Source: Henricia sp. BOLD:AAB3569 (Eukaryota > Echinodermata > Asteroidea > Spinulosida > Echinasteridae). Taken from it: a stretch of DNA of 64,000 nt. The translations under genes were made by a program, and so were the position numbers. The stretch is taken from contig JBBELK010000304.1 in the NCBI GenBank assembly GCA_037783545.1, positions 62,001-126,000 of the forward strand. The letters run 5' to 3'. This document shows positions 1 through 64,000 of this stretch, piece after piece; the first letter of the stretch is position 1; every line of letters starts with the position of its first letter. The notes below the pieces were generated by a model. The model was not told the DNA's origin. It did not search any database and worked only from the letters and a program-made list of their open reading frames with translations.

Positions 1-25
1 CGTCATTTCCCAGCGAAAATCTGTC

Positions 26-75
26 AATTTTGCATGACAAGTGCGGAATATATACAGTTTGGAGCATGCAAAATT
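26..75. repeat. 11-bp inverted repeat flanking a TATATA box
   Basis: AATTTTGCATG at 26-36 and CATGCAAAATT at 65-75 are perfect reverse complements around a 28-nt loop that contains ATATATA. The structure recurs in nearly every monomer of both arms. Scattered copies have one arm mutated, for example CAACATTTG at about 14806, 19789, 36364 and 37183. It could extrude as a hairpin or cruciform, or act as a promoter-like dyad; neither is shown. Confidence 0.7.
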
Positions 76-159
76 TGAAGTTGGTTGGAAAATTCCTTGA
101 TTTCCAAATTTGCCGGCATTTGGGACACACTTTGACCTAATTCCCGTCACAATCTGGGG

Positions 160-166
160 TGAGTCA
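160..166 (+). promoter_or_regulatory. AP-1/TRE-like TGAGTCA site, once per monomer
   Basis: TGAGTCA matches the canonical AP-1 (TRE) heptamer and recurs in nearly every monomer of both arrays, as TGACTCA in the right arm. Sporadic copies are mutated, for example CAGTCA at about 25971 and TGACCCA at 48898, 54409 and 59919. Binding is inferred from the motif only. Confidence 0.5.
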
Positions 167-40110: not shown

Positions 40111-40229
40111 TTTTGTCAGCCTGGTTTCCGCACTGATCATCTTCAAAAAGATACCAAAACGCTCTCGTGAAGAAGGGGAGGGCATGATTGAAGAAGACAT
40201 TTAGCAATGTATCGCAATTCCCGAGGGCA

Positions 40230-40839
40230 AGCCCGAAACGGATCTGAAAACAGCCGCAGCCTGCGCTGGAGCTTAGATATCCCATCATCGATAGGTGCAC
40301 AATGTCCGCAAGATCCTGCTCCACGATGTAATCGTTCGAGAAAAACTGCCAGCTAGCATTCATGACAGACCTCTTTCAATAATGAGTTGACTACGGCGAC
40401 TGAGCGATTGATGTCCACCATCTTGGTTTGGCACCTTGAGGAAAGAACAAATATGCATATTGGGAATTTTTTCCCTGATCAGTTGGGCAACAGCGCGAAA
40501 AACCCCTACCACGTCAAGTACACCCTGCGAAGGGTCGGTCAATCGGCTGAAATCATTTATGCCTCCGCGCAGAACTGCCACCTCCGGCTGAAAAGCCCTG
40601 CAAGATACCACCAGATGTCTACATAACGGGGCCATTTTTGTGCCTCCGTTGGCTAACATTTGCACGCTCAATGCCTTGGGCCAGCCGAATCCTTTGAACC
40701 CTCTGAACATTGAGTCGAACACAAGGAGAACATGGTGACGCTTAGCGTAAGCGATATCCATTCGGGGGGTGACAATACGTGGGAAGTAGCACTGGAAGGC
40801 CCAGAGCTCAAACCCCAGCCCTTGAAAAATTCGGGACAT
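40230..40839 (-). pseudogene. SGNH (GDSL-like) hydrolase domain pseudogene
   Basis: An esterase-like domain that some Ngaro and CR1 retroelements carry; its role in their life cycle is not settled. Visible SGNH blocks: block I as FDSM with the nucleophile-position serine at about 40713 (the usual G is F); block II glycines in NGG near 40645; block III GGIND with the Asn at about 40557; block V as DIVH with Asp at about 40306 and His at about 40297. Blocks I-III lie in one frame, which ends in a stop at 40360. Block V is in another frame whose ATG overlaps that stop (ATGA), so the domain is split by a frameshift. The true start is unknown; 40839 is the first Met of the open stretch and is probably too far upstream. 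It lies between RT/RH and YR. Confidence 0.75.
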
Positions 40840-41029
40840 ATCCCGTAGAAGACGGGTATTCTAAAAAACCCTGCTTGACCTGCCTCTGACAGGCGAAAGG
40901 AAGAACTTGAGTGGAGACCCGTTCCTGCGCGCCGGGACATTTGACGAAAGTGCCATCAAATCAAAGGTGAAAACCTGTGGGACTACCAGATGGGACCTAG
41001 GTCAACTTGAGCAAAACATTTGCCTCCAA

Positions 41030-42140
41030 GGAGAGGGCAAAACAAAAAATATTTATAGCCAGATGCGTCTGCCGACATTGCAATGCGATAGCAAGGTGGC
41101 GGCCTTGACTTCAAGGGATCAGCTGCGAGAAGCTATCGACAAACCTCCAAAATAGAATCTCCTCCCGCACTTGTGGTGACAGAGGCGTAGGCACGAGATC
41201 ATATCAAGTGTAGATATGAAGGAGGAGCATTCCCTCAGAAACAAACAAACACCAGAGCAAAACTTTGGCCTTTGCCCACAAAACGTTGCATCTGTTTTTA
41301 GAGCATTTTATCCTCCCGCAAAATTGTCTCTCGTACCTCAGCGAATGATGCCTTTTTATTCTCAGGAATCGGAAATGATAGGGTTTGGAGCAGATGCCGA
41401 ACCCGAGATGCACCATGCTGTTCGATGGCTGCCGATGACTTTTTTTTAAGTTGCTGAACAAGCCGAGCTTTAACTGTATGTAGCGTACGACGTAAACGGC
41501 CCTTAGAACTCTGATGTAGGAACCGTCCCCATGCATGTCCTGTTCACACCGCAATAAAACAAACACGAGTGAAGTGTCTTAAACCTTCGTATACTTTGGC
41601 CCTCCATCGCTGGGATGGCACTCGCCAATGAAACGGTCGTCTATCCAGATTTCTGTATGTATACCTCTGTTCTTAAGCCATGCAGGAAGACAAAAGCCAA
41701 TGGATGAGTAAACTTATGCACTGTTTTTTTTTTTTGTTTTTTTTTAACCAAACCCACTCGAAGCCGGAAAATGTTCTGGACTCCTTGGTCAAGAAGATTT
41801 GCTTGTATCCCTGGCTGTTGTCGGTACTTGAGAAAATATCGCCTTTGGTTATGGGTCTGACAATATTGCCTAAAGGTACCACACTGAAGGGTGTGTCCTT
41901 GCGCCAAAGATTAGGTCCCTTCATTGATATAGAAGCAGACGCGGCTTCTTGGGTTCAACTGTCAAGGCAGTCACACATTTCGGCGGCTGTACTTCCTTGA
42001 CCCTACCCACAACGTATATATAGACCCCTCTATCCACCGCCTGGTGATTGTGTCTATGAAAAAGGCGACATAATCTTGACAAATGAGCGCATTTAAAATA
42101 CCTTTCGGTGGGCAATTATAAACGGCAATTCCTGCCTCTG
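41030..42140 (-). pseudogene. Reverse transcriptase-RNase H pseudogene of the retroelement
   Basis: Motifs on the minus strand, scattered over all three frames: DYVAFFIDTI and GRVKEVQPPK then LTVEPKKPRL (about 42080-41930); LWRKDTPFS and TDNSQGY, with the first catalytic Asp near 41820; GFEW near 41755; WIDDR, the catalytic double Asp (41641-41636) with Trp where Tyr is usual; LKK and HLGF of the thumb-side motif (about 41446-41399); FWRFVDSF (about 41150); and DASGYKY, an RNase H-type Asp motif (about 41069). The spacing and motif style fit DIRS/Ngaro RTs. At least three frameshifts and several stops are present, and a poly-A run (41724-41745 as T on the plus strand) lies in the palm region. 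Confidence 0.82.
41724..41745 (+). repeat. Poly-T tract interrupted by one G
   Basis: Twelve T, one G and nine T. On the minus strand it is an A-tract inside the RT palm reading, coinciding with loss of frame just downstream of the GFEW motif. Slippage here probably contributed to inactivation. Confidence 0.85.
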
Positions 42141-42149
42141 TATCTGCCA

Positions 42150-42655
42150 TGAAACGACTGGAAAAAATAATACAGACTAATTCCATGATGAAGCCAACCA
42201 TGAACTTCGTCCCTATTGGGTGACTCTGCTAAGATATCGTCCCAAAGCACCAGGATCATTGCTTAATGTGCCGGCTACAAAATAGTTGGATCTCTGAATC
42301 CGAGCGCCTATAAATCTACCTGTAGTCTACCAGAGAGAACTTCAGGCGAGGTGGGTGTAAAAGGGACTGGCAAGCCACTTGGTTTGCCATTGAAAACTAC
42401 CCACTGGGAGGTGCCTCGTTTCCGCTTCGCTGCGTGCGTAGCGATGGGATCAAAAGATTGATCAAAATCTCTCTCACACAGATGACTCTCCAGCATTTTC
42501 AAATACCACTGGTACTCAAATGTTTTTCTTTACATCTTCGGCAAACAAAGGCTCGAACTCGTCCACGTATTCTCTAAACACAGACATCACGTAGACAACC
42601 TTGCGATCATAGCTCGTCTCCATGCCCGCTTGAGCAGCTGCAGGCGTCTTGGCTT
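42150..42655 (-). pseudogene. gag-like or RT-upstream coding fragment, cut by the satellite
   Basis: Minus-strand coding-like sequence reads from at least 42649 (KTPAAAQAGMETSYDRK) through VYVMSVFREYVDEFEPLF, shifts frame near 42530, and continues with YLKMLESHLCERDFD, HAAKRK and LSGRL before meeting the RT. The composition is protein-like, and its place just upstream of RT fits the end of a gag-type ORF or an RT N-terminal extension. I recognise no zinc knuckle. It is open to the satellite junction, so upstream sequence has been lost. Identity is inferred from position. Confidence 0.5.
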
Positions 42656-42656
42656 G

Positions 42657-44384
42657 TGGACACCCTGCGCATGCGCCGCGCTGGTGTACATTTGTACGGC
42701 CGTTGACTCACCCCAGATTGTGACGGGAATTAGGTCAAAGTGTGTCCCAAATGCCGGCAAATTTGGAAATCAAGGAATTTTCCAACCAACTTCAAATTTT
42801 GCATGCTCCAAACTGTATATATTCCGCACTTGTCATGCAAAATTGACAGATTTTCGCTGGGAAATGACGGAGAAATTTCAGAGTTTAGGGAAAACGGAGC
42901 TCGGCTACGTGGTTATTCCCCTAACCGTGGCTGTTGGGACACCCTGCGCTGCGCTGGTGTACATTTGTACGGCCGTTGACTCACCCCAGATTGTGACGGG
43001 AATTAGGTCAAAGTGTGTCCCAAATGCCGGCAAATTTGGAAATCAAGGAATTTTCCAACCAACTTCAAATTTTGCATGCTCCAAACTGTATATATTCCGC
43101 ACTTGTCATGCAAAATTGACAGATTTTTGCTGGGAAATGACGGAGAAATTTCAGAGTTTAGGGAAAACGGAGCTCGGCTGCGTGGTTATTCCCCTAACCG
43201 TGGCTGTTGGGACACCCTGCGCCGCGCTGGTGTATATTTGTACGGCCGTTGACTCACCCCAGATTGTGACGAGAATTAGGTCAAAGTGTGTCCCAAATGC
43301 CGGCAAATTTGGAAATCAAGGAATTTTCCAACCAACTTCAAATTTTGCATGCTCCAAACTGTATATATTCCGCACTTGTCATGCAAAATTGACAGATTTT
43401 CGCTGGGAAATGACGGAGAAATTTCAGAGTTTAGGGAAAACGGAGCTCGGCTGCGTGGTTATTCCCCTAACCGTGGCTGTTGGGACACCCTGCGCATGCG
43501 CCGCGCTGGTGTACATTTGTACGGCCGTTGACTCACCCCAGATTGTGACGGGAATTAGGTCAAAGTGTGTCCCAAATGCCGGCAAATTTGGAAATCAAGG
43601 AATTTTCCAACCAACTTCAAATTTCGCATGCTCCAAACTGTATATATTCCGCACTTGTCATGCAAAATTGACAGATTTTCGCTGGGAAATGACGGAGAAA
43701 TTTCAGAGTTTAGGGAAAACGGAGCTCGGCTGCGTGGTTATTCCCCTAACCGTGGCTGTTGGGACACCCTGCGCTGCGCTGGTGTACATTTGTACGGCCG
43801 TTGACTCACCCCAGATTGTGACGGGAATTAGGTCAAAGTGTGTCCCAAATGCCGGCAAATTTGGAAATCAAGGAATTTTCCAACCAACTTCAAATTGTGC
43901 ATTTTCCAAACTGTATATATTCCGCACTTGTCATGCAAAATTGACAGATTTTCGCTGGGAAATGACGGAGAAATTTCAGAGTTTAGGGAAAACGGAGCTC
44001 GGCTGCGTGGTTATTCCCCTAACCGTGGCTGTTGGGACACCCTGCGCCGCGCTGGTGTACATTTGTACGGCCGTTGACTCACCCCAGATTGTGACGGGAA
44101 TTAGGTCAAAGTGTGTCCCAAATGCCGGCAAATTTGGAAATCAAGGAATTTTCCAACCAACTTCAAATTTTGCATGCTCTAAACTGTATATATTCCGCAC
44201 TTGTCATGCAAAATTGACAGATTTTCGCTGGGAAATGACGGAGAAATTTCAGAGTTAAGGGAAAACGGAGCTCGGCTGCGTGGTTATTCCCCTAACCGTG
44301 GCTGTTGGGACACCCTGCGCATGCGCCGCGCTGGTGTACATTTGTACGGCCGTTGACTCACCCCAGATTGTGACGGGAATTAGG
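42657..44384 (-). repeat. Right satellite array, core-proximal part
   Basis: The same satellite as the left array but reverse-complemented. It begins at 'gacaccctgcgc' directly after the relict retroelement. About six monomers, mostly the 273-bp class (spacings of 273, 273, 279 and 273 bp between equivalent points at 42740, 43013, 43286, 43565 and 43838). It is interrupted at 44385 by the TIR element. No gene seen. Confidence 0.96.
44377..44384 (+). repeat. Target-site duplication GAATTAGG, left copy
   Basis: The last satellite bases before the TIR element. The satellite resumes with the same 8 bp at 45664. Removing the element and one copy would restore an ordinary monomer. Confidence 0.9.
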
Positions 44385-45663
44385 CACAGAGCTATATATA
44401 GGAACTAGAGTGAGCACTTATCACGTGACCCCGTGCCCTCAAGGGTGCGTGGACGCCATTTTGTTAGTGGGCAAAAAGTACGTGCTAATGTATTGACGAC
44501 ATGCGTATTTTCAGCTTTAATTTTATTTTAAGATTATGCTTTCAGCGATAGGGGTGCAGAAAGATGTGGTTGCTAACTACAATCATCCTGACTGTCGGAT
44601 CATTGTCCCATGTTTATATTTTACTTTAAAAGATTGAAACTTTAGTTAGGCCAAACACTTTTCTTTCCCCATGGGCCAAACAACATTCAAAATCGTCGCC
44701 CGGGTACTGTACAAGATTTGGGGAGTTGATCATAATTTTTTTTAATGGCTTATCTAGCATTAGAATGTGCAGATTTGATGGAAAAACTCGAAATTTGGAG
44801 TGGGAAAGTTTAAGATTTTGTGAGGAAACACTGGATTTTTTTTTCAGCCTGCCTCATCTATTTTGCACACAAGGTCTGAAGCCACGATCAACTTCCTAGT
44901 TCTTTCCTGCTACGTCCCCCACTGCTTTTTGCGTGTGTAGGTAGAGCATTCGGGTCTACTAGTACCTCAGCCATTAACTTGGGGGAAAGTAACACCCGTT
45001 TCATACAGGCGCACGATCGTTCCGATTAAAATTTTGTTTCAGACAGGCGTCGGTATGCGAGCCGCGCGCACACTTAAGATCGACGTCTGAAACCAAGTCG
45101 CTGTTCAGTCGTTCGATCTTTCGACTTCTGGCGAACCAAGTCGCTCCAAATTGTTTCATACGTCGAACTTAATTCAAATTTCTGGGATAATTTAGTTCAG
45201 CGCGACTGTAAGGTGCAGGATTTCCCGGTGAAACCGACTGCCTAAGGGAAAAACTACCGTTCTACCGTTCACCATGCATTAATTAAGTACATAGCATAAC
45301 CTAGCATTTTCAAGAGAAAAACTGTATTTTTTTCATTTCTAAAATCACGTTTCTAACAAAATTCGCACTTTTTGTGACATTATTATGTCATAATTAGTGG
45401 CAGAGGTGTACGTTACTTATACCTGCCTAGGTACAATAGAAAAAGCTCACTCATGACTGGCGTTAAACAGCCAATAAATCATTTAAAAGCCCATTTATAG
45501 CTGCCGCGCCGTTGACTGCAGTGGATACATCCGGGTATTTATCAATCATTTTGACCACTAACAAAATGGCGGACGCGGTCCCAGGGCGGCACGCCCGGGT
45601 ACCGCGCACAGGCACGGGGTCACGTGATAAGTGCGCACTCTAGTTCTTATATATAGCTCCATG
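44385..45663. mobile_element. Non-autonomous TIR DNA transposon, 1,279 bp, 8-bp TSD
   Basis: Terminal inverted repeats of about 53 bp (44385-44437 and 45611-45663) match at 49 positions; they begin CA and contain GAGCTATATATA and CACGTGACCCCGTGCC. A second matching block, GCCATTTTGTTAGTGG, lies at 44455-44470 and inverted at 45555-45570. GAATTAGG flanks both sides (44377-44384 and 45664-45671) and equals the satellite sequence at that point, so it is a clean target-site duplication. An 8-bp TSD with CA termini fits hAT or P-type elements; reading the TSD as 9 bp would point to a MULE. There is no transposase ORF. The interior (44480-45540) is AT-rich with short inverted motifs. Confidence 0.9.
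44998..45236. repeat. GTTTCA-type inverted motif cluster inside the TIR element
   Basis: GTTTCATACAGG (44998), GTTTCAGACAGGCGTCGG (45036), the inverted CGACGTCTGAAAC (45081-45093), GTTTCATACGTCGAAC (45153) and the inverted GGTGAAAC (45228) recur within 240 bp, together with a direct repeat AACCAAGTCGCT (45091 and 45134). This could be a nested short palindromic element or the internal sub-repeats of the TIR element. I cannot assign it. Confidence 0.4.
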
Positions 45664-45671
45664 GAATTAGG
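45664..45671 (+). repeat. Target-site duplication GAATTAGG, right copy
   Basis: Directly follows the right TIR and runs into normal satellite 'tcaaagtgtgtccc'. A preceding G would make the direct repeat 9 bp. Confidence 0.9.
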
Positions 45672-47529
45672 TCAAAGTGTGTCCCAAATGCCGGCAAATT
45701 TGGAAATCAAGGAATTTTCCAACCAACTTCAAATTTTGCATGCTCCAAACTGTATATATTCCGCACTTGTCATGCAAAATTGACAGATTTTCGCTGGGAA
45801 ATGACGGAGAAATTTCAGAGTTTAGGGAAAACGGAGCTCGGCTGCGTGGTTATTCCCCTAACCGTGGCTGTTGGGACACCCTGCGCATGCGCCGCGCTGG
45901 TGTACATTTGTACGGCCGTTGACTCACCCCAGATTGTGACGGGAATTAGGTCAAAGTGTGTCCCAAATGCCGGCAAATTTGAAATCAAGGAATTTTCCAA
46001 CCAACTTCAAATTTTGCATGCTCCAAACTGTATATATTCCGCACTTGTCATGCAAAATTGACAGATTTTCGCTGGGAAATGACGGAGAAATTTCAGAGTT
46101 TAGGGAAAACGGAGCTCGGCTGCGTGGTTATTCCCCTAACCGTGGCTGTTGGGACACCCTGCGCCGCGCTGGTGTACATTTGTACGGCCGTTGACTCACC
46201 CCAGATTGTGACGAGAATTAGGTCAAAGTGTGTCCCAAATGCCGGCAAATTTGGAAATCAAGGAATTTTCCAACCAACTTCAAATTTTGCATGCTCCAAA
46301 CTGTATATATTCCGCACTTGTCATGCAAAATTGACAGATTTTCGCTGGGAAATGACGGAGAAATTTCAGAGTTTAGGGAAAACGGAGCTCGGCTGCGTGG
46401 TTATTCCCCTAACCGTGGCTGTTGGGACACCCTGCGCATGCGCCGCGCTGGTGTACATTTGTACGGCCGTTGACTCACCCCAGATTGTGACGGGAATTAG
46501 GTCAAAGTGTGTCCCAAATGCCGGCAAATTTGGAAATCAAGGAATTTTCCAACCAACTTCAAATTTTGCATGCTCCAAACTGTATATATTCCGCACTTGT
46601 CATGCTAAATTGACGGTTTTCGCTGGGAAATGACGGAGAAATTTCAGAGTTTAGGGAAAACGGAGCTCGGCTGCGTGGTTATTCCCCTAACCGTGGCTGT
46701 TGGGACACCCTGCGCTGCGCTGGTGTACATTTGTACGGCCGTTGACTCACCCCAGATTGTGACGGGAATTAGGTCAAAGTGTGTCCCAAATGCCGGCAAA
46801 TTTGGAAATCAAGGAATTTTCCAACAACTTCAAATTGTGCATGCTCCAAACTGTATATATTCCGCACTTGTCATGCAAAATTGACAGATTTTCGCTGGGA
46901 AATGACGGAGAAATTTCAGAGTTTAGGGAAAACGGAGCTCGGCTACGTGGTTATTCCCCTAACCGTGGCTGTTGGGACACCCTGCGCTGCGCTGGTGTAC
47001 ATTTGTACGGCCGTTGACTCACCCCAGATTGTGACGAGAATTAGGTCAAAGTGTGTCCCAAATGCCGGCAAATTTGGAAATCAAGGAATTTTCCAACCAA
47101 CTTCAAATTTTGCATGCTCCAAACTGTATATATTCCGCACTTGTCATGCAAAATTGACAGATTTTCGCTGGGAAATGACGGAGAAATTTCAGAGTTTAGG
47201 GAAAACGGAGCTCGGCTGCGTGGTTATTCCCCTAACCGTGGCTGTTGGGACACCCTGCGCCGCGCTGGTGTACATTTTTACGGCCGTTGACTCACCCTAG
47301 ATTGTGACGGGAATTAGGTCAAAGTGTGTCCCAAATGACGGCAAATTTGGAAATCAAGGAATTTTCCAACCAACTTCAAATTTTGCATGCTCCAAACTGT
47401 ATATATTCCGCACTTGTCATGCAAAATTGACAGATTTTCGCTGGGAAATGACGGAGAAATTTCAGAGTTTAGGGAAAACGGAGCTCGGCTGCGTGGTTAT
47501 TCCCCTAACCGTGGCTGTTGGGACACCCT

Positions 47530-47640
47530 GCGCCGCGCTGGTGTACATTTGTACGGCCGTTGACTCACCCCAGATTGTGACGGGAATTTTCCAACCAACT
47601 TCAAATTTTGCATGCTCCAAACTGTATATATTCCGCACTT
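47530..47640 (-). repeat. Shortened monomer, 48-bp deletion between GGAATT repeats
   Basis: At about 47581-47595 'gacgggaatt' joins directly to 'ttccaacc'. The 48 bp normally between two GGAATT hexamers, from the TCAAAGTG box to the AATCAAG box, are missing. One GGAATT remains, as expected for deletion between short direct repeats. The loss is a multiple of three, so the open frame continues. Confidence 0.85.
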
Positions 47641-48363
47641 GTCATGCAAAATTGACAGATTTTCGCTGGGAAATGACGGAGAAATTTCAGAGTTTAGGGA
47701 AAACGGAGCTCGGCTGCGTGGTTATTCCCCTAACCGTGGCTGTTGGGACACCCTGCGCATGCGCCGCGCTGGTGTACATTTGTACGGCCGTTGACTCACC
47801 CCAGATTGTGACGGGAATTAGGTCAAAGTGTGTCCCAAATGCCGACAAATTTGGAAATCAAGGAATTTTCCAACCAACTTCAAATTTTGCATGCTCCAAA
47901 CTGTATATATTCCGCACTTGTCATGCAAAATTGACAGATTTTCGCTGGGAAATGACGGAGAAATTTCAGAGTTTAGGGAAAACGGAGCTCGGCTGCGTGG
48001 TTATTCCCCTAACCGTGGCTGTTGGGACACCCTGCGCATGCGCCGCGCTGGTGTACATTTGTACGGCCGTTGACTCACCCCAGATTTTGACGGGAATTAG
48101 GTCAAAGTGTGTCCCAAATGCCGGCAAATTTGGAAATCAAGGAATTTTCCAACCAACTTCAAATTTTGCATGCTCCAAACTGTATATATTCCGCACTTGT
48201 CATGCAAAATTGACAGATTTTCGCTGGGAAATGACTGAGAAATTTCAGAGTTTAGGGAAAACGGAGCTCGGCTGCGTGGTTATTCCCCTAACCGTGGCTG
48301 TTGGGACACCCTGCGCCGCGCTGGTGTACATTTGTACGGCCGTTGACTCACCCCAGATTGTGA

Positions 48364-51300
48364 CGAGAAAAAAAGGTCAAAGTGTGTCCCAAATGCCGGC
48401 AAATTTGGAAATCAAGGAATTTTCCAACCAACTTCAAATTTTGCATGCTCCAAACTGTATATATTCCGCACTTGTCATGCAAAATTGACAGATTTTCGCT
48501 GGGAAATGACGGAGAAATTTCAGAGTTTAGGGAAAACGGAGCTCGGCTGCGTGGTTATTCCCCTAACCGTGGCTGTTGGGACACCCTGCGCCGCGCTGGT
48601 GTACATTTGTACGGCCGTTGACTCAACCCAGATTGTGACGGGAATTAGGTCAAAGTGTGTCCCAAATGCCGGCAAATTTGGAAATCAAGGAATTTTCCAA
48701 CCAACTTCAAATTTTGCATGCTCCAAACTGTATATATTCCGCACTTGTCATGCAAAATTGACAGATTTTCGCTGGGAAATGACGGAGAAATTTCAGAGTT
48801 TAGGGAAAACGGAGCTCGGCTGCGTGGTTATTCCCCTAACCGTGGCTGTTGGGACACCCTGCGCATGCGCCGCGCTGGTGTACATTTGTACGGCCGTTGA
48901 CCCACCCCAGATTGTGACGGGAATTAGGTCAAAGTGTGTCCCAAATGCCGGCAAATTTGGAAATCAAGGAAATTTTCAACCAACTTCAAATTTTGCATGC
49001 TCCAAACTGTATATATTCCGCACTTGTCATGCAAAATTGACAGATTTTCGCTGGGAAATGACGGAGAAATTTCAGAGTTTAGGGAAAACGGAGCTCGGCT
49101 GCGTGGTTATTCCCCTAACCGTGGCTGTTGGGACACCCTGCGCATGCGCCGCGCTGGTGTACATTTGTACGGCCGTTGACTCACCCCAGATTGTGACGGG
49201 AATTAGGTCAAAGTGTGTCCCAAATGCCGGCAAATTTGGAAATCAAGGAATTTTCCAACCAACTTAAAATTTTGCATGCTCCAAACTGTATATATTCCGC
49301 ACTTGTCATGCAAAATTGACAGATTTTCGCTGGGAAATGACGGAGAAATTTCAGAGTTTAGAGAAAACGGAGCTCGGCTGCGTGGTTATTCCCCTAACCG
49401 TGGCTGTTGGGACACCCTGCGCCGCGCTGGTGTACATTTGTACGGCCGTTGACTCACCCGAGATTGTGACGGGAATTAGGTCAAAGTGTGTCCCAAATGC
49501 CGGCAAATTTGGAAATCAAGGAATTTTCCAACCAACTTCAAATTTTGCATGCTCCAAACTGTATATATTCCGCACTTGTCATGCAAAATTGACAGATTTT
49601 CGCTGGGAAATGACGGAGAAATTTCAGAGTTTAGGGAAAACGGAGCTCGGCTGCGTTGTTATTCCCCTAACCGTGGCTGTTGGGACACCCTGCGCCGCGC
49701 TGGTGTACATTTGTACGGCCGTTGACTCACCCCAGATTGTGACGGGAATTAGGTCAAAGTGTGTCCCAAATGCCGGCAAATTTGGAAATCAAGGAATTTT
49801 CCAACCAACTTCAAATTTTGCATGCTCCAAACTGTATATATTCCGCACTTGTCATGCAAAATTGACAGATTTTCGCTGGGAAATGACGGAGAAATTTCAG
49901 AGTTTAGGGAAAACGGAGCTCGGCTGCGTTGTTATTCCCCTAAACGTGGCTGTTGGGACACCCTGCGCCGCGCTGGTGTACATTTGTACGGCCGTTGACT
50001 CACCCCAGATTGTGACGGGAATTAGGTCAAAGTGTGTCCCAAATGCCGGCAAATTTGGAAATCAAGGAATTTTCCAACCAACTTCAAATTTTGCATGCTC
50101 CAAACTGTATATATTCCGCACTTGTCATGCAAAATTGACAGATTTTCGCTGGGAAATGACGGAGAAATTTCAGAGTTTAGGGAAAACGGAGCTCGGCTGC
50201 GTGGTTATTCCCCTAACCGTGGCTGTTGGGACACCCTGCGCATGCGCCGCGCTGGTGTACATTTGTACGGCCGTTGACTCACCCCAGATTGTGACGGGAA
50301 TTAGGTCAAAGTGTGTCCCAAATGCCGACAAATTTGGAAATCAAGGAATTTTCCAACCAACTTCAAATTTTGCATGCTCCAAACTGTATATATTCCGCAC
50401 TTGTCATGCAAAATTGACAGATTTTCGCTGGGAAATGACGGAGAAATTTCAGAGTTTAGGGAAAACGGAGCTCGGCTGCGTGGTTATTCCCCTAACCGTG
50501 GCTGTTGGGACACCCTGCGCATGCGCCGCGCTGGTGTACATTTGTACGGCCGTTGACTCACCCCAGATTGTGACGGGAATTAGGTCAAAGTGTGTCCCAA
50601 ATGCCGGCAAATTTGGAAATCAAGGAATTTTCCAACCAACTTCAAATTTTGCATGCTCCAAACTGTATATATTCCGCACTTGTCATGCAAAATTGACAGA
50701 TTTTCGCTGGGAAATGACTGAGAAATTTCAGAGTTTAGGGAAAACGGAGCTCGGCTGCGTGGTTATTCCCCTAACCGTGGCTGTTGGGACACCCTGCGCC
50801 GCGCTGGTGTACATTTGTACGGCCGTTGACTCACCCCAGATTGTGACGAGAAAAAAGGTCAAAGTGTGTCCCAAATGCCGGCAAATTTGGAAATCAAGGA
50901 ATTTTCCAACCAACTTCAAATTTTGCATGCTCCAAACTGTATATATTCCGCACTTGTCATGCAAAATTGACAGATTTTCGCTGGGAAATGACGGAGAAAT
51001 TTCAGAGTTTAGGGAAAACGGAGCTCGGCTGCGTGGTTATTCCCCTAACCGTGGCTGTTGGGACACCCTGCGCCGCGCTGGTGTACATTTGTACGGCCGT
51101 TGACTCAACCCAGATTGTGACGGGAATTAGGTCAAAGTGTGTCCCAAATGCCGGCAAATTTGGAAATCAAGGAATTTTCCAACCAACTTCAAATTTTGCA
51201 TGCTCCAAACTGTATATATTCCGCACTTGTCATGCAAAATTGACAGATTTTCGCTGGGAAATGACGGAGAAATTTCAGAGTTTAGGGAAAACGGAGCTCG

Positions 51301-54300
51301 GCTGCGTGGTTATTCCCCTAACCGTGGCTGTTGGGACACCCTGCGCATGCGCCGCGCTGGTGTACATTTGTACGGCCGTTGACTCACCCCAGATTGTGAC
51401 GGGAATTAGGTCAAAGTGTGTCCCAAATGCCGGCAAATTTGGAAATCAAGGAAATTTTCAACCAACTTCAAATTTTGCATGCTCCAAACTGTATATATTC
51501 CGCACTTGTCATGCAAAATTGACAGATTTTCGCTGGGAAATGACGGAGAAATTTCAGAGTTTAGGGAAAACGGAGCTCGGCTGCGTGGTTATTCCCCTAA
51601 CCGTGGCTGTTGGGACACCCTGCGCCGCGCTGGTGTACATTTGTACGGCCGTTGACTCACCCCAGATTGTGACGAGAAAAAAGGTCAAAGTGTGTCCCAA
51701 ATGCCGGCAAATTTGGAAATCAAGGAATTTTCCAACCAACTTCAAATTTTGCATGCTCCAAACTGTATATATTCCGCACTTGTCATGCAAAATTGACAGA
51801 TTTTCGCTGGGAAATGACGGAGAAATTTCAGAGTTTAGGGAAAACGGAGCTCGGCTGCGTGGTTATTCCCCTAACCGTGGCTGTTGGGACACCCTGCGCC
51901 GCGCTGGTGTACATTTGTACGGCCGTTGACTCAACCCAGATTGTGACGGGAATTAGGTCAAAGTGTGTCCCAAATGCCGGCAAATTTGGAAATCAAGGAA
52001 TTTTCCAACCAACTTCAAATTTTGCATGCTCCAAACTGTATATATTCCGCACTTGTCATGCAAAATTGACAGATTTTCGCTGGGAAATGACGGAGAAATT
52101 TCAGAGTTTAGGGAAAACGGAGCTCGGCTGCGTGGTTATTCCCCTAACCGTGGCTGTTGGGACACCCTGCGCATGCGCCGCGCTGGTGTACATTTGTACG
52201 GCCGTTGACTCACCCCAGATTGTGACGGGAATTAGGTCAAAGTGTGTCCCAAATGCCGGCAAATTTGGAAATCAAGGAAATTTTCAACCAACTTCAAATT
52301 TTGCATGCTCCAAACTGTATATATTCCGCACTTGTCATGCAAAATTGACAGATTTTCGCTGGGAAATGACGGAGAAATTTCAGAGTTTAGGGAAAACGGA
52401 GCTCGGCTGCGTGGTTATTCCCCTAACCGTGGCTGTTGGGACACCCTGCGCATGCGCCGCGCTGGTGTACATTTGTACGGCCGTTGACTCACCCCAGATT
52501 GTGACGGGAATTAGGTCAAAGTGTGTCCCAAATGCCGGCAAATTTGGAAATCAAGGAATTTTCCAACCAACTTAAAATTTTGCATGCTCCAAACTGTATA
52601 TATTCCGCACTTGTCATGCAAAATTGACAGATTTTCGCTGGGAAATGACGGAGAAATTTCAGAGTTTAGAGAAAACGGAGCTCGGCTGCGTGGTTATTCC
52701 CCTAACCGTGGCTGTTGGGACACCCTGCGCTGCGCTGGTGTACATTTGTACGGCCGTTGACTCACCCGAGATTGTGACGGGAATTAGGTCAAAGTGTGTC
52801 CCAAATGCCGGCAAATTTGGAAATCAAGGAATTTTCCAACCAACTTCAAATTTTGCATGCTCCAAACTGTATATATTCCGCACTTGTCATGCAAAATTGA
52901 CAGATTTTCGCTGGGAAATGACGGAGAAATTTCAGAGTTTAGGGAAAACGGAATTCGGCTGCGTTGTTATTCCCCTAACCGTGGCTGTTGGGACACCCTG
53001 CGCCGCGCTGGTGTACATTTGTACGGCCGTTGACTCACCCCAGATTGTGACGGGAATTAGGTCAAAGTGTGTCCCAAATGCCGGCAAATTTGGAAATCAA
53101 GGAATTTTCCAACCAACTTCAAATTTTGCATGCTCCAAACTGTATATATTCCGCACTTGTCATGCAACATTGACAGATTTTCGTTGGGAAATGACGGAGA
53201 AATTTCAGAGTTTAGGGAAAACGGAGCTCGGCTGCATGGTTATTCCCCTAACCGTGGCTGTTGGGACACCCTGCGCATGCGCCGCGCTGGTGTACATTTG
53301 TACGGCCGTTGACTCACCCCAGATTGTGACGGGAATTAGGTCAAAGTGTGTCCCAAATGCCGACAAATTTGGAAATCAAGGAATTTTCCAACCAACTTCA
53401 AATTTTGCATGCTCCAAACTGTATATATTCCGCACTTGTCATGCAAAATTGACAGATTTTCGCTGGGAAATGACGGAGAAATTTCAGAGTTTAGAGAAAA
53501 CGGAGCTCGGCTGCGTGGTTATTCCCCTAACCGTGGCTGTTGGGACACCCTGCGCCGCGCTGGTGTACATTTGTACGGCCGTTGACTCACCCCAGATTGT
53601 GACGGGAATTAGGTCAAAGTGTGTCCCAAATGCCGGCAAATTTGGAAATCAAGGAATTTTCCAACCAACTTCAAATTTTGCATGCTCCAAACTGTATATA
53701 TTCCGCACTTGTCATGCAAAATTGACAGATTTTCGCTGGGAAATGACGGAGAAATTTCAGAGTTTAGAGAAAACGGAGCTCGGCTGCGTGGTTATTCCCC
53801 TAACCGTGGCTGTTGGGACACCCTGCGCCGCGCTGGTGTACATTTGTACGGCCGTTGACTCACCCCAGATTGTGACGGGAATTAGGTCAAAGTGTGTCCC
53901 AAATGCCGGCAAATTTGGAAATCAAGGAATTTTCCAACCAACTTCAAATTTTGCATGCTCCAAACTGTATATATTCCGCACTTGTCATGCAAAATTGACA
54001 GATTTTCGCTGGGAAATGACTGAGAAATTTCAGAGTTTAGGGAAAACGGAGCTCGGCTGCGTGGTTATTCCCCTAACCGTGGCTGTTGGGACACCCTGCG
54101 CCGCGCTGGTGTACATTTGTACGGCCGTTGACTCACCCCAGATTGTGACGAGAAAAAAGGTCAAAGTGTGTCCCAAATGCCGGCAAATTTGGAAATCAAG
54201 GAATTTTCCAACCAACTTCAAATTTTGCATGCTCCAAACTGTATATATTCCGCACTTGTCATGCAAAATTGACAGATTTTCGCTGGGAAATGACGGAGAA

Positions 54301-57300
54301 ATTTCAGAGTTTAGGGAAAACGGAGCTCGGCTGCGTGGTTATTCCCCTAACCGTGGCTGTTGGGACACCCTGCGCATGCGCCGCGCTGGTGTACATTTGT
54401 ACGGCCGTTGACCCACCCCAGATTGTGACGGGAATTAGGTCAAAGTGTGTCCCAAATGCCGGCAAATTTGGAAATCAAGGAAATTTTCAACCAACTTCAA
54501 ATTTTGCATGCTCCAAACTGTATATATTCCGCACTTGTCATGCAAAATTGACAGATTTTCGCTGGGAAATGACGGAGAAATTTCAGAGTTTAGGGAAAAC
54601 GGAGCTCGGCTGCGTGGTTATTCCCCTAACCGTGGCTGTTGGGACACCCTGCGCATGCGCCGCGCTGGTGTACATTTGTACGGCCGTTGACTCACCCCAG
54701 ATTGTGACGGGAATTAGGTCAAAGTGTGTCCCAAATGCCGGCAAATTTGGAAATCAAGGAATTTTCCAACCAACTTAAAATTTTGCATGCTCCAAACTGT
54801 ATATATTCCGCACTTGTCATGCAAAATTGACAGATTTTCGCTGGGAAATGACGGAGAAATTTCAGAGTTTAGAGAAAACGGAGCTCGGCTGCGTGGTTAT
54901 TCCCCTAACCGTGGCTGTTGGGACACCCTGCGCCGCGCTGGTGTACATTTGTACGGCCGTTGACTCACCCGAGATTGTGACGGGAATTAGGTCAAAGTGT
55001 GTCCCAAATGCCGGCAAATTTGGAAATCAAGGAATTTTCCAACCAACTTCAAATTTTGCATGCTCCAAACTGTATATATTCCGCACTTGTCATGCAAAAT
55101 TGACAGATTTTCGCTGGGAAATGACGGAGAAATTTCAGAGTTTAGGGAAAACGGAGCTCGGCTGCGTTGTTATTCCCCTAACCGTGGCTGTTGGGACACC
55201 CTGCACCGCGCTGGTGTACATTTGTACGGCCGTTGACTCACCCCAGATTGTGACGGGAATTAGGTCAAAGTGTGTCCCAAATGCCGGCAAATTTGGAAAT
55301 CAAGGAATTTTCCAACCAACTTCAAATTTTGCATGCTCCAAACTGTATATATTCCGCACTTGTCATGCAAAATTGACAGATTTTCGCTGGGAAATGACGG
55401 AGAAATTTCAGAGTTTAGGGAAAACGGAGCTCGGCTGCGTTGTTATTCCCCTAAACGTGGCTGTTGGGACACCCTGCGCCGCGCTGGTGTACATTTGTAC
55501 GGCCGTTGACTCACCCCAGATTGTGACGGGAATTAGGTCAAAGTGTGTCCCAAATGCCGGCAAATTTGGAAATCAAGGAATTTTCCAACCAACTTCAAAT
55601 TTTGCATGCTCCAAACTGTATATATTCCGCACTTGTCATGCAAAATTGACAGATTTTCGCTGGGAAATGACGGAGAAATTTCAGAGTTTAGGGAAAACGG
55701 AGCTCGGCTGCGTGGTTATTCCCCTAACCGTGGCTGTTGGGACACCCTGCGCATGCGCCGCGCTGGTGTACATTTGTACGGCCGTTGACTCACCCCAGAT
55801 TGTGACGGGAATTAGGTCAAAGTGTGTCCCAAATGCCGACAAATTTGGAAATCAAGGAATTTTCCAACCAACTTCAAATTTTGCATGCTCCAAACTGTAT
55901 ATATTCCGCACTTGTCATGCAAAATTGACAGATTTTCGCTGGGAAATGACGGAGAAATTTCAGAGTTTAGGGAAAACGGAGCTCGGCTGCGTGGTTATTC
56001 CCCTAACCGTGGCTGTTGGGACACCCTGCGCATGCGCCGCGCTGGTGTACATTTGTACGGCCGTTGACTCACCCCAGATTGTGACGGGAATTAGGTCAAA
56101 GTGTGTCCCAAATGCCGGCAAATTTGGAAATCAAGGAATTTTCCAACCAACTTCAAATTTTGCATGCTCCAAACTGTATATATTCCGCACTTGTCATGCA
56201 AAATTGACAGATTTTCGCTGGGAAATGACTGAGAAATTTCAGAGTTTAGGGAAAACGGAGCTCGGCTGCGTGGTTATTCCCCTAACCGTGGCTGTTGGGA
56301 CACCCTGCGCCGCGCTGGTGTACATTTGTACGGCCGTTGACTCACCCCAGATTGTGACGAGAAAAAAGGTCAAAGTGTGTCCCAAATGCCGGCAAATTTG
56401 GAAATCAAGGAATTTTCCAACCAACTTCAAATTTTGCATGCTCCAAACTGTATATATTCCGCACTTGTCATGCAAAATTGACAGATTTTCGCTGGGAAAT
56501 GACGGAGAAATTTCAGAGTTTAGGGAAAACGGAGCTCGGCTGCGTGGTTATTCCCCTAACCGTGGCTGTTGGGACACCCTGCGCCGCGCTGGTGTACATT
56601 TGTACGGCCGTTGACTCAACCCAGATTGTGACGGGAATTAGGTCAAAGTGTGTCCCAAATGCCGGCAAATTTGGAAATCAAGGAATTTTCCAACCAACTT
56701 CAAATTTTGCATGCTCCAAACTGTATATATTCCGCACTTGTCATGCAAAATTGACAGATTTTCGCTGGGAAATGACGGAGAAATTTCAGAGTTTAGGGAA
56801 AACGGAGCTCGGCTGCGTGGTTATTCCCCTAACCGTGGCTGTTGGGACACCCTGCACATGCGCCGCGCTGGTGTACATTTGTACGGCCGTTGACTCACCC
56901 CAGATTGTGACGGGAATTAGGTCAAAGTGTGTCCCAAATGCCGGCAAATTTGGAAATCAAGGAAATTTTCAACCAACTTCAAATTTTGCATGCTCCAAAC
57001 TGTATATATTCCGCACTTGTCATGCAAAATTGACAGATTTTGGCTGGGAAATGACGGAGAAATTTCAGAGTTTAGGGAAAACGGAGCTCGGCTGCGTGGT
57101 TATTCCCCTAACCGTGGCTGTTGGGACACCCTGCGCATGCGCCGCGCTGGTGTACATTTGTACGGCCGTTGACTCACCCCAGATTGTGACGGGAATTAGG
57201 TCAAAGTGTGTCCCAAATGCCTGCAAATTTGGAAATCAAGGAATTTTCCAACCAACTTAAAATTTTGCATGCTCCAAACTGTATATATTCCGCACTTGTC

Positions 57301-60300
57301 ATGCAAAATTGACAGATTTTCGCTGGGAAATGACGGAGAAATTTCAGAGTTTAGAGAAAACGGAGCTCGGCTGCGTGGTTATTCCCCTAACCGTGGCTGT
57401 TGGGACACCCTGCGCCGCGCTGGTGTACATTTGTACGGCCGTTGACTCACCCGAGATTGTGACGGGAATTAGGTCAAAGTGTGTCCCAAATGCCGGCAAA
57501 TTTGGAAATCAAGGAATTTTCCAACCAACTTCAAATTTTGCATGCTCCAAACTGTATATATTCCGCACTTGTCATGCAAAATTGACAGATTTTCGCTGGG
57601 AAATGACGGAGAAATTTCAGAGTTTAGGGAAAACGGAGCTCGGCTGCGTTGTTATTCCCCTAACCGTGGCTGTTGGGACACCCTGCGCCGCGCTGGTGTA
57701 CATTTGTACGGCCGTTGACTCACCCCAGATTGTGACGGGAATTAGGTCAAAGTGTGTCCCAAATGCCGGCAAATTTGGAAATCAAGGAATTTTCCAACCA
57801 ACTTCAAATTTTGCATGCTCCAAACTGTATATATTCCGCACTTGTCATGCAACATTGACAGATTTTCGTTGGGAAATGACGGAGAAATTTCAGAGTTTAG
57901 GGAAAACGGAGCTCGGCTGCATGGTTATTCCCCTAACCGTGGCTGTTGGGACACCCTGCGCATGCGCCGCGCTGGTGTACATTTGTACGGCCGTTGACTC
58001 ACCCCAGATTGTGACGGGAATTAGGTCAAAGTGTGTCCCAAATGCCGACAAATTTGGAAATCAAGGAATTTTCCAACCAACTTCAAATTTTGCATGCTCC
58101 AAACTGTATATATTCCGCACTTGTCATGCAAAATTGACAGATTTTCGCTGGGAAATGACGGAGAAATTTCAGAGTTTAGAGAAAACGGAGCTCGGCTGCG
58201 TGGTTATTCCCCTAACCGTGGCTGTTGGGACACCCTGCGCTGCGCTGGTGTACATTTGTACGGCCGTTGACTCACCCGAGATTGTGACGGGAATTAGGTC
58301 AAAGTGTGTCCCAAATGCCGGCAAATTTGGAAATCAAGGAATTTTCCAACCAACTTCAAATTTTGCATGCTCCAAACTGTATATATTCCGCACTTGTCAT
58401 GCAAAATTGACAGATTTTCGCTGGGAAATGACGGAGAAATTTCAGAGTTTAGGGAAAACGGAATTCGGCTGCGTTGTTATTCCCCTAACCGTGGCTGTTG
58501 GGACACCCTGCGCCGCGCTGGTGTACATTTGTACGGCCGTTGACTCACCCCAGATTGTGACGGGAATTAGGTCAAAGTGTGTCCCAAATGCCGGCAAATT
58601 TGGAAATCAAGGAATTTTCCAACCAACTTCAAATTTTGCATGCTCCAAACTGTATATATTCCGCACTTGTCATGCAACATTGACAGATTTTCGTTGGGAA
58701 ATGACGGAGAAATTTCAGAGTTTAGGGAAAACGGAGCTCGGCTGCATGGTTATTCCCCTAACCGTGGCTGTTGGGACACCCTGCGCATGCGCCGCGCTGG
58801 TGTACATTTGTACGGCCGTTGACTCACCCCAGATTGTGACGGGAATTAGGTCAAAGTGTGTCCCAAATGCCGACAAATTTGGAAATCAAGGAATTTTCCA
58901 ACCAACTTCAAATTTTGCATGCTCCAAACTGTATATATTCCGCACTTGTCATGCAAAATTGACAGATTTTCGCTGGGAAATGACGGAGAAATTTCAGAGT
59001 TTAGAGAAAACGGAGCTCGGCTGCGTGGTTATTCCCCTAACCGTGGCTGTTGGGACACCCTGCGCCGCGCTGGTGTACATTTGTACGGCCGTTGACTCAC
59101 CCCAGATTGTGACGGGAATTAGGTCAAAGTGTGTCCCAAATGCCGGCAAATTTGGAAATCAAGGAATTTTCCAACCAACTTCAAATTTTGCATGCTCCAA
59201 ACTGTATATATTCCGCACTTGTCATGCAAAATTGACAGATTTTCGCTGGGAAATGACGGAGAAATTTCAGAGTTTAGAGAAAACGGAGCTCGGCTGCGTG
59301 GTTATTCCCCTAACCGTGGCTGTTGGGACACCCTGCGCCGCGCTGGTGTACATTTGTACGGCCGTTGACTCACCCCAGATTGTGACGGGAATTAGGTCAA
59401 AGTGTGTCCCAAATGCCGGCAAATTTGGAAATCAAGGAATTTTCCAACCAACTTCAAATTTTGCATGCTCCAAACTGTATATATTCCGCACTTGTCATGC
59501 AAAATTGACAGATTTTCGCTGGGAAATGACTGAGAAATTTCAGAGTTTAGGGAAAACGGAGCTCGGCTGCGTGGTTATTCCCCTAACCGTGGCTGTTGGG
59601 ACACCCTGCGCCGCGCTGGTGTACATTTGTACGGCCGTTGACTCACCCCAGATTGTGACGAGAAAAAAGGTCAAAGTGTGTCCCAAATGCCGGCAAATTT
59701 GGAAATCAAGGAATTTTCCAACCAACTTCAAATTTTGCATGCTCCAAACTGTATATATTCCGCACTTGTCATGCAAAATTGACAGATTTTCGCTGGGAAA
59801 TGACGGAGAAATTTCAGAGTTTAGGGAAAACGGAGCTCGGCTGCGTGGTTATTCCCCTAACCGTGGCTGTTGGGACACCCTGCGCATGCGCCGCGCTGGT
59901 GTACATTTGTACGGCCGTTGACCCACCCCAGATTGTGACGGGAATTAGGTCAAAGTGTGTCCCAAATGCCGGCAAATTTGGAAATCAAGGAAATTTTCAA
60001 CCAACTTCAAATTTTGCATGCTCCAAACTGTATATATTCCGCACTTGTCATGCAAAATTGACAGATTTTCGCTGGGAAATGACGGAGAAATTTCAGAGTT
60101 TAGGGAAAACGGAGCTCGGCTGCGTGGTTATTCCCCTAACCGTGGCTGTTGGGACACCCTGCGCATGCGCCGCGCTGGTGTACATTTGTACGGCCGTTGA
60201 CTCACCCCAGATTGTGACGGGAATTAGGTCAAAGTGTGTCCCAAATGCCGGCAAATTTGGAAATCAAGGAATTTTCCAACCAACTTCAAATTTTGCATGC

Positions 60301-62450
60301 TCCAAACTGTATATATTCCGCACTTGTCATGCAAAATTGACAGATTTTCGCTGGGAAATGACGGAGAAATTTCAGAGTTTAGGGAAAACGGAGCTCGGCT
60401 GCGTTGTTATTCCCCTAACCGTGGCTGTTGGGACACCCTGCACCGCGCTGGTGTACATTTGTACGGCCGTTGACTCACCCCAGATTGTGACGGGAATTAG
60501 GTCAAAGTGTGTCCCAAATGCCGGCAAATTTGGAAATCAAGGAATTTTCCAACCAACTTCAAATTTTGCATGCTCCAAACTGTATATATTCCGCACTTGT
60601 CATGCAAAATTGACAGATTTTCGCTGGGAAATGACGGAGAAATTTCAGAGTTTAGGGAAAACGGAGCTCGGCTGCGTTGTTATTCCCCTAAACGTGGCTG
60701 TTGGGACACCCTGCGCCGCGCTGGTGTACATTTGTACGGCCGTTGACTCACCCCAGATTGTGACGGGAATTAGGTCAAAGTGTGTCCCAAATGCCGGCAA
60801 ATTTGGAAATCAAGGAATTTTCCAACCAACTTCAAATTTTGCATGCTCCAAACTGTATATATTCCGCACTTGTCATGCAAAATTGACAGATTTTCGCTGG
60901 GAAATGACGGAGAAATTTCAGAGTTTAGGGAAAACGGAGCTCGGCTGCGTGGTTATTCCCCTAACCGTGGCTGTTGGGACACCCTGCGCATGCGCCGCGC
61001 TGGTGTACATTTGTACGGCCGTTGACTCACCCCAGATTGTGACGGGAATTAGGTCAAAGTGTGTCCCAAATGCCGACAAATTTGGAAATCAAGGAATTTT
61101 CCAACCAACTTCAAATTTTGCATGCTCCAAACTGTATATATTCCGCACTTGTCATGCAAAATTGACAGATTTTCGCTGGGAAATGACGGAGAAATTTCAG
61201 AGTTTAGGGAAAACGGAGCTCGGCTGCGTGGTTATTCCCCTAACCGTGGCTGTTGGGACACCCTGCGCATGCGCCGCGCTGGTGTACATTTGTACGGCCG
61301 TTGACTCACCCCAGATTGTGACGGGAATTAGGTCAAAGTGTGTCCCAAATGCCGGCAAATTTGGAAATCAAGGAATTTTCCAACCAACTTCAAATTTTGC
61401 ATGCTCCAAACTGTATATATTCCGCACTTGTCATGCAAAATTGACAGATTTTCGCTGGGAAATGACTGAGAAATTTCAGAGTTTAGGGAAAACGGAGCTC
61501 GGCTGCGTGGTTATTCCCCTAACCGTGGCTGTTGGGACACCCTGCGCCGCGCTGGTGTACATTTGTACGGCCGTTGACTCACCCCAGATTGTGACGAGAA
61601 AAAAGGTCAAAGTGTGTCCCAAATGCCGGCAAATTTGGAAATCAAGGAATTTTCCAACCAACTTCAAATTTTGCATGCTCCAAACTGTATATATTCCGCA
61701 CTTGTCATGCAAAATTGACAGATTTTCGCTGGGAAATGACGGAGAAATTTCAGAGTTTAGGGAAAACGGAGCTCGGCTGCGTGGTTATTCCCCTAACCGT
61801 GGCTGTTGGGACACCCTGCGCATGCGCCGCGCTGGTGTACATTTGTACGGCCGTTGACTCACCCCAGATTGTGACGGGAATTAGGTCAAAGTGTGTCCCA
61901 AATGCCGACAAATTTGGAAATCAAGGAATTTTCCAACCAACTTCAAATTTTGCATGCTCCAAACTGTATATATTCCGCACTTGTCATGCAAAATTGACAG
62001 ATTTTCGCTGGGAAATGACGGAGAAATTTCAGAGTTTAGGGAAAACGGAGCTCGGCTGCGTGGTTATTCCCCTAACCGTGGCTGTTGGGACACCCTGCGC
62101 ATGCGCCGCGCTGGTGTACATTTGTACGGCCGTTGACTCACCCCAGATTGTGACGGGAATTAGGTCAAAGTGTGTCCCAAATGCCGGCAAATTTGGAAAT
62201 CAAGGAATTTTCCAACCAACTTCAAATTTTGCATGCTCCAAACTGTATATATTCCGCACTTGTCATGCAAAATTGACAGATTTTCGCTGGGAAATGACTG
62301 AGAAATTTCAGAGTTTAGGGAAAACGGAGCTCGGCTGCGTGGTTATTCCCCTAACCGTGGCTGTTGGGACACCCTGCGCCGCGCTGGTGTACATTTGTAC
62401 GGCCGTTGACTCACCCCAGATTGTGACGAGAAAAAAGGTCAAAGTGTGTC
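48364..62450 (-). repeat. Right-arm HOR tagged by an A-run monomer
   Basis: Monomers with 'acgagaaaaaagg' occur near 48364, 50847, 51673, 54149, 56358, 59658, 61596 and 62428. The first has one extra A. Spacings of 826, 832, 1,938, 2,209, 2,476, 2,483 and 3,300 bp show a core of about three monomers repeatedly extended. The tag removes frame and length regularity at the very box used as the TIR-element target. Confidence 0.78.
52624..59370 (-). repeat. Repeated block with GGAATTCGG and ACATTGAC variants
   Basis: 'aaacggaattcggctgcg' occurs at about 52947 and 58457, followed in both by a monomer with 'catgcaacattgac', 'ttttcgttggg' and 'ggctgcatgg' (about 53163 and 58673), an offset of 5,510 bp. 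A related copy with GGAGCTCGG in place of GGAATTCGG lies in between (about 57640-57920). This shows nested block amplification in the right arm. Confidence 0.75.
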
Positions 62451-64000
62451 CCAAATGCCGGCAAATTTGGAAATCAAGGAATTTTCCAACCAACTTCAAA
62501 TTTTGCATGCTCCAAACTGTATATATTCCGCACTTGTCATGCAAAATTGACAGATTTTCGCTGGGAAATGACGGAGAAATTTCAGAGTTTAGGGAAAACG
62601 GAGCTCGGCTGCGTGGTTATTCCCCTAACCGTGGCTGTTGGGACACCCTGCGCCGCGCTGGTGTACATTTGTACGGCCGTTGACTCAACCCAGATTGTGA
62701 CGGGAATTAGGTCAAAGTGTGTCCCAAATGCCGGCAAATTTGGAAATCAAGGAATTTTCCAACCAACTTCAAATTTTGCATGCTCCAAACTGTATATATT
62801 CCGCACTTGTCATGCAAAATTGACAGATTTTCGCTGGGAAATGACGGAGAAATTTCAGAGTTTAGGGAAAACGGAGCTCGGCTGCGTGGTTATTCCCCTA
62901 ACCGTGGCTGTTGGGACACCCTGCACATGCGCCGCGCTGGTGTACATTTGTACGGCCGTTGACTCACCCCAGATTGTGACGGGAATTAGGTCAAAGTGTG
63001 TCCCAAATGCCGGCAAATTTGGAAATCAAGGAAATTTTCAACCAACTTCAAATTTTGCATGCTCCAAACTGTATATATTCCGCACTTGTCATGCAAAATT
63101 GACAGATTTTGGCTGGGAAATGACGGAGAAATTTCAGAGTTTAGGGAAAACGGAGCTCGGCTGCGTGGTTATTCCCCTAACCGTGGCTGTTGGGACACCC
63201 TGCGCATGCGCCGCGCTGGTGTACATTTGTACGGCCGTTGACTCACCCCAGATTGTGACGGGAATTAGGTCAAAGTGTGTCCCAAATGCCTGCAAATTTG
63301 GAAATCAAGGAATTTTCCAACCAACTTAAAATTTTGCATGCTCCAAACTGTATATATTCCGCACTTGTCATGCAAAATTGACAGATTTTCGCTGGGAAAT
63401 GACGGAGAAATTTCAGAGTTTAGAGAAAACGGAGCTCGGCTGCGTGGTTATTCCCCTAACCGTGGCTGTTGGGACACCCTGCGCCGCGCTGGTGTACATT
63501 TGTACGGCCGTTGACTCACCCGAGATTGTGACGGGAATTAGGTCAAAGTGTGTCCCAAATGCCGGCAAATTTGGAAATCAAGGAATTTTCCAACCAACTT
63601 CAAATTTTGCATGCTCCAAACTGTATATATTCCGCACTTGTCATGCAAAATTGACAGATTTTCGCTGGGAAATGACGGAGAAATTTCAGAGTTTAGGGAA
63701 AACGGAGCTCGGCTGCGTTGTTATTCCCCTAACCGTGGCTGTTGGGACACCCTGCGCCGCGCTGGTGTACATTTGTACGGCCGTTGACTCACCCCAGATT
63801 GTGACGGGAATTAGGTCAAAGTGTGTCCCAAATGCCGGCAAATTTGGAAATCAAGGAATTTTCCAACCAACTTCAAATTTTGCATGCTCCAAACTGTATA
63901 TATTCCGCACTTGTCATGCAACATTGACAGATTTTCGTTGGGAAATGACGGAGAAATTTCAGAGTTTAGGGAAAACGGAGCTCGGCTGCATGGTTATTCC
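56360..64000 (-). repeat. Segmental duplication inside the array, 6,069-bp offset
   Basis: Private variants 'ccctgcacatgcgcc', 'attttggctggg' and 'aatgcctgcaaat' (57221 and 63290) recur exactly 6,069 bp apart. The interval from about 56360 is therefore copied from about 62430 to beyond about 63750. Further on the two copies still agree in 'gcaacattgac' and 'gctgcatggtt'. Confidence 0.83.

Follow-up and report, generated by a model that had tools for sequence, protein, structure and literature searches.

Opposed arrays of one satellite around a decayed transposon-like core in a Henricia contig: a candidate satellite macro-dyad

Arrays in which subunits of one satellite face each other have been described from several lineages. 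Macro-dyad symmetric satellite arrays occur in Tribolium madens, T. freemani and T. castaneum, where they reach up to 75 kb in the case of TmSat1, and according to the cited part of the T. madens paper none had yet been documented outside this genus (PMC13081366). In the same account, the opposed satellite subunits of these macro-dyads face each other across conserved inversion sites, of which one is degenerate, and the three Tribolium genomes are called A+T-rich (PMC13081366). For maize CEN10, inversions were inferred, in the cited part of that study, to have reshaped the centromere (PMC4806543). The present analysis concerns a window of 64,000 nucleotides (the whole stretch of DNA that was analysed, positions 62,001 to 126,000 of contig JBBELK010000304.1 from Henricia sp. 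BOLD:AAB3569), in which an earlier note, made from the sequence alone, had seen inverted satellite arms of unusual size. Since opposed satellite subarrays are known in Tribolium, in primate alpha-satellite and in maize CentC, the word unusual was only partly right.

The layout that the earlier note had proposed, with opposed satellite arms of at least 38.4 kb and at least 21.3 kb around a 4.2-kb core, was borne out by Tandem Repeats Finder (TRF) and local alignment (Table 1), the length of the right arm counting an insert of 1.28 kb. TRF returned a single array at 1-38440, with 138.8 copies and 97% matches, and the reverse complement of the unit at 42672-44384 and 45663-64000. By local alignment, the left arm ends at 38436 under strict and at 38440 under permissive settings, and the right arm starts at 42658 (strict) or 42650 (permissive), leaving a core of about 4.2 kb. 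In monomer phase, the two arm ends nearly coincide (224-228 versus 212-221, i.e., 7-16 bp apart by local alignment), and by our own arithmetic two random phases would lie at most 12 bp apart in about 9% of cases. Most monomers are 273 or 279 bp long, the two lengths differing by a 6-bp indel. The length variants of the left arm are graded, as its first 21 units all have the long form and short ones predominate near the core. The right arm does not consist of satellite alone, being interrupted by a 1.28-kb element that the earlier note did not mention, and at 47358-47819 it holds a shortened monomer with a spacing of 225 bp, in which about 50 bp are missing. The window is free of N, has a GC content of about 47% and yielded no tRNA, and a scan of 38000-46500 against Rfam gave no match. 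Opposed subarrays of a single satellite, and a length in the range from a few kb to tens of kb, both of them defining traits of macro-dyads, are thus present, and the switch of orientation is what an inversion-type junction, one of the readings offered in the earlier note, would look like.

Table 1. Features of the 64,000-nucleotide window, with positions counted from its first letter.
Feature	Position	Strand	Description and basis
Left satellite arm	1-38440	+	273/279-bp monomers, running toward the core, extends past the window; TRF, 138 monomers aligned, local alignment
Non-satellite core at the orientation switch	38441-42657		decayed, transposon-like; short open pieces, the longest of 166 codons
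121-codon open piece	38774-39136	-	tyrosine-recombinase-like HxxR...W...Y motif; translation, motif by eye
Small MITE-like insert	39718-39880		lies within the core, with perfectly inverted ends of 17 bp
166-codon open piece	40363-40860	-	weak GDSL/SGNH hydrolase match; Pfam PF13472
93-codon piece	41676-41954	-	reverse-transcriptase-like by eye only; translation
Right satellite arm	42658-64000	-	same monomer, opposed, split by the 1.28-kb element, extends past the window; TRF, 68 monomers aligned, local alignment
Left copy of the 9-bp target-site duplication GGAATTAGG	44376-44384		adjoins the 1.28-kb element
Probable non-autonomous DNA transposon	44385-45662		49-bp terminal inverted repeats, 96% complementary; flanking duplication
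Right copy of the 9-bp target-site duplication GGAATTAGG	45663-45671		adjoins the 1.28-kb element

For the comparison of the arms, 138 monomers were cut from the left and 68 from the right arm, with three abnormal right-arm intervals (225, 550 and 1566 bp) left out. By mean identity the arms are hardly distinguishable (mean pairwise monomer identity 0.978 within the left arm, 0.9749 within the right arm and 0.9742 between the arms), and six indel columns are the sole difference between the two consensus sequences. When monomers are paired across the core, the exact mirror offset takes rank 70 among 177 offsets and the best offset within 4 of it, a tolerance that allows for the left-out intervals, takes rank 18, and for the 20 mirror pairs closest to the core the mean is 0.9766, versus 0.9762 for the whole 20 x 20 block. 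Exact matches extend to 2463 bp within the left arm and 2397 bp within the right arm, versus 407 bp between the arms, and of those that measure 200 bp or more, a length of 450 bp is attained by 96 of 2679 in the left arm and 36 of 474 in the right arm, versus none of the 2217 inter-arm matches. Runs of monomers that are at least 99% alike comprise up to 13 monomers in the left arm, 10 in the right arm and 3 between the arms, and identical monomer pairs are distributed likewise (280/9453 left, 74/2278 right, 13/9384 inter-arm). With the indel zone excluded, 177 of the 206 monomers have their best match in their own arm and 5 in the other arm, with ties for 24. As exact matches are long and block-wise within the arms and do not exceed 407 bp between them, each arm was amplified in blocks of its own.

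The same partition is seen in the variants that the monomers carry, which outside the indel differ from the consensus by only about 1-3 bases each (bin means). The indel zone was excluded from the following counts across the core, between whole arms and within arms, unless its inclusion is stated. None of 18 variants that have at least three copies in one of the two 30-monomer blocks flanking the core is common to both blocks; with blocks of 34 monomers the sharing across the core is 0/19, versus 9/9 for the last two left-arm blocks and 14/14 for the two halves of the right arm. For whole arms, 1 of the 44 variants with at least three copies in one arm is common to both. Across 88 splits placed wholly inside one arm, the lowest sharing is 3/14 and the median fraction 0.67, and across 64 within-arm splits with a gap of 15 monomers, which equals the core in length, the lowest is again 3/14 and the median fraction 0.41, these splits overlapping one another and hence not being independent. 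Sharing drops with distance inside an arm too, as the two 69-monomer halves of the left arm have 8 of 23 variants in common. At a frequency of 5%, and with the indel zone included, nine variants are shared (six of them being the indel itself), five are private to the left and 14 to the right arm. Because almost no variant and no exact stretch longer than 407 bp is common to both arms, there is no sign of conversion or pairing between them.

The core holds no detectable remnant of the satellite, since its best local scores of 24 and 21 compare with a mean of 22.7 and a maximum of 29 for 40 shuffled cores. A Pfam scan that covered 16 of the 30 core open pieces with 60 codons or more gave a single row, in which the 166-codon piece matches PF13472 (GDSL_2) with an E of 0.0024 and 18.9 bits, under the cut-off of 32.9; the same SGNH-like piece has no row in PHROGs or NCBIfam. 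In the 121-codon piece, 23 residues separate R from W and 9 separate W from Y in the HxxR...W...Y motif, which is likened here to tyrosine recombinases (YR) on the spacing that we take to be expected of them; the piece has no match in Pfam or PDB, and the few rows that it drew, one in PHROGs at E 0.11 and two in NCBIfam at E 0.011 and 0.054, are unrelated and sub-threshold. The 93-codon reverse-transcriptase-like piece is without a match in Pfam, PHROGs or PDB and has one unrelated sub-threshold row in NCBIfam. Searches for relatives found none of the YR-like piece among 9 candidates and none of the SGNH-like piece among 27; in viral contigs, the SGNH-like piece matched five loci, over 21 residues only, and the reverse-transcriptase-like piece had no relative. 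Among repeats, the core contains three direct ones of 17-20 nt, each present in two copies, and three inverted pairs, including that of the MITE-like insert. Neither split direct repeats nor inverted terminal repeats of an element were found in the core, the ends of which may be lost; its interior showed no long inverted symmetry, and no direct duplication was seen by eye to flank it.

To judge from these pieces, the core is perhaps the remnant of a decayed YR-type retrotransposon of the Ngaro/DIRS-like kind, as the combination of tyrosine recombinase and SGNH hydrolase in Ngaro-like YR retrotransposons would match its two most telling pieces. In amphibians, Ngaro elements carry both YR and SGNH, with the SGNH frame placed after the YR frame, in the cited part of their description (PMC9210276); here, in contrast, the SGNH-like piece precedes the YR-like one, split direct repeats were not found and a reverse-transcriptase-like piece is recognised by eye only. 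The dead retrotransposon of the earlier note is therefore sustained as to decay, the weak GDSL/SGNH match and the YR-like motif seen by eye, but finds no reverse-transcriptase profile or structure match.

The 1.28-kb element in the right arm combines long terminal inverted repeats with a 9-bp target duplication, as do Mutator-like elements (MULEs), which generate target duplications of 9 bp. A Pfam scan of 3 of the 10 listed open pieces of the element gave one unrelated sub-threshold row, and by its terminal structure the element is probably a non-autonomous DNA transposon.

Both main unit lengths are divisible by three, and the consensus monomer can be read without a stop in a single frame, on the opposite strand relative to the left-arm orientation; the longest open pieces in the satellite comprise 1109 aa in the left and 886 aa in the right arm. 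A coding satellite was considered and rejected, as substitutions in the stop-free frame are without a sign of selection: 27 distinct substitutions are synonymous, 59 non-synonymous and 7 create stops, versus 23.8, 63.6 and 5.6 expected, with P(syn) at 0.25. A 542-aa piece of this frame drew rows from 9 Pfam families, two of them above the whole-protein cut-offs (Med14 RM, E 5.7e-07; 7TM_GPCR_Srw, E 4e-05), with no single stretch passing by itself, and we would read these rows as weak matches summed over repeats. No relative of the frame was found among 7993 scored candidates or in viral contigs, in which a satellite 21-mer likewise had 0 exact matches. A satellite 17-mer occurs in 8 bacterial contigs, versus about 30 estimated by chance in 257 Gb, and is hence uninformative; the stretch 38000-38500 has no plasmid match.

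The two arms share a consensus and are opposed in orientation, each shows local segmental amplification, and hardly any variant occurs on both sides of the core. With somewhat better than even confidence, we regard the locus as a satellite macro-dyad, namely two opposed arrays of the same family that meet at a single switch holding an old transposon-like remnant. The switch could have arisen by inversion, for example of an array tail plus the core, by capture of two opposed arrays, or by insertion at an existing inverted junction. Thereafter, unequal exchange and local block duplication, of which blocks of up to 13 monomers are seen, would have homogenised each arm alone, because exchange between direct repeats across the orientation switch would invert or break the chromosome. 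Since such exchange could not cross the switch without a chromosome rearrangement, the core would be neither lost nor multiplied by turnover, and the sparing of this single-copy core would explain why an old, broken element lies between young arms with monomers about 97.5-98% alike. A wider and more tentative proposal, which we consider possible but doubtful, is that orientation switches act as natural recombination barriers that insulate the flanking arrays and protect an old single-copy element, and that macro-dyads occur outside Tribolium.

Several observations count against the macro-dyad. Sharing within an arm declines with distance (8/23 between the halves of the left arm), the inter-arm mean identity of 0.9742 is barely under the 0.9749 within the right arm, and 13 monomer pairs are identical between the arms; the near-equal end phases, unexpected of a random inversion yet reached in about 9% of cases by chance, weigh weakly in the same direction. 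Moreover, the same data fit an assembly join of two unrelated arrays. That array pieces of different loci, haplotypes or strands were joined via the core agrees with the 0/18 variants common across it, and both arms exit the window as near-identical repeats, the kind of sequence that is hardest to assemble; however, the core abuts both arms in a window without any N and a mis-join must, by argument, sit at the core edge or within the core, and we consider such an artefact unlikely. A true palindrome, in which a single array was duplicated in inverted form, by fold-back or in the manner of an isochromosome, and the core serves as spacer, could account for the single consensus of both arms and for arm ends within 7-16 bp of equal monomer phase. 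This isochromosome or palindrome reading, which the earlier note had put forward, predicted mirror-paired monomers and variants shared across the core, neither of which was found, and "palindrome-like" is apt for the orientation of the monomers but not for any mirror correspondence between the arms. A palindrome with mirrored arms finds no support, since mirror pairs are ordinary both at the mirror offset (rank 70/177, or 18 within 4) and near the core (0.9766 versus 0.9762), the longest inter-arm exact match is 407 bp and 0/18 cross-core variants are in common; together with a core free of detected long inverted symmetry, this makes a true palindrome very improbable, although an old symmetry may have been erased by turnover.

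Tyrosine-recombinase elements integrate without target duplication, and the YR-like motif would place the core in this class, so that an element of the kind might have transposed precisely into a pre-existing inverted satellite junction. The absence of a core-flanking direct duplication, as seen by eye, suits this insertion, and the near-equal end phases slightly favour it; yet targeting would be needed to land on the sole switch point in 60 kb, no sequence recognisable as an element end turned up, and the core is decayed while the arms are uniform, and hence this origin is held to be rather improbable. It is highly doubtful, from the sequence features at hand, that the arms would form a functional centromere core, i.e., inverted arms in a centromere where symmetry is relevant to CENP-A chromatin. 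Local amplification is typical of centromeric arrays, which the amplification inside the arms resembles. Opposed satellite arrays also lie in putative (peri)centromeric regions of Tribolium, in the cited part of that work (PMC13081366). However, matches to the CENP-B box are at chance level (one site with 3 mismatches versus 0.69 expected, and no match to the core pattern of the box), the single-stranded DNA fold of one monomer-length stretch is only modestly better than shuffles (z -1.70, with 12/200 shuffles as good), and almost no variants are common to both arms, hence there is no sign of arm pairing.

The arm-specific variants make it testable which exchange processes homogenise satellites and whether these stop at an orientation switch, and, being private to one arm, they also bear on the hairpin pairing of long inverted satellites. 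As macro-dyads are documented only in Tribolium in the cited account, an example from outside that genus, if borne out by reads, would extend the range of this arrangement (PMC13081366). The likeness to the Tribolium macro-dyads consists in two opposed subarrays of one satellite that span tens of kb, whereas a 4.2-kb non-satellite core lies between the arms here and the subunits are directly opposed in the Tribolium arrays as described (PMC13081366). An inversion site within the satellite subunits themselves is absent from the window, and the locus is therefore at most a variant of the Tribolium kind, from which its GC content of about 47% also sets it apart, the Tribolium genomes being A+T-rich by the paper's description (PMC13081366). 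Primate alpha-satellite likewise has orientation switches inside arrays, which were validated there with ultra-long reads, but it is a different satellite, its inverted blocks are larger, as in the 3.2 Mb of one orangutan chromosome 20 centromere, and the cited part of that study describes no transposon core (PMC11062924). Maize CEN10, as far as the cited part of its description extends, similarly has opposed tandem arrays, of CentC, in a retrotransposon-rich centromere, and differs from the present locus in its plant CentC and CR elements and in having two adjoining arrays that meet at a junction (PMC4806543).
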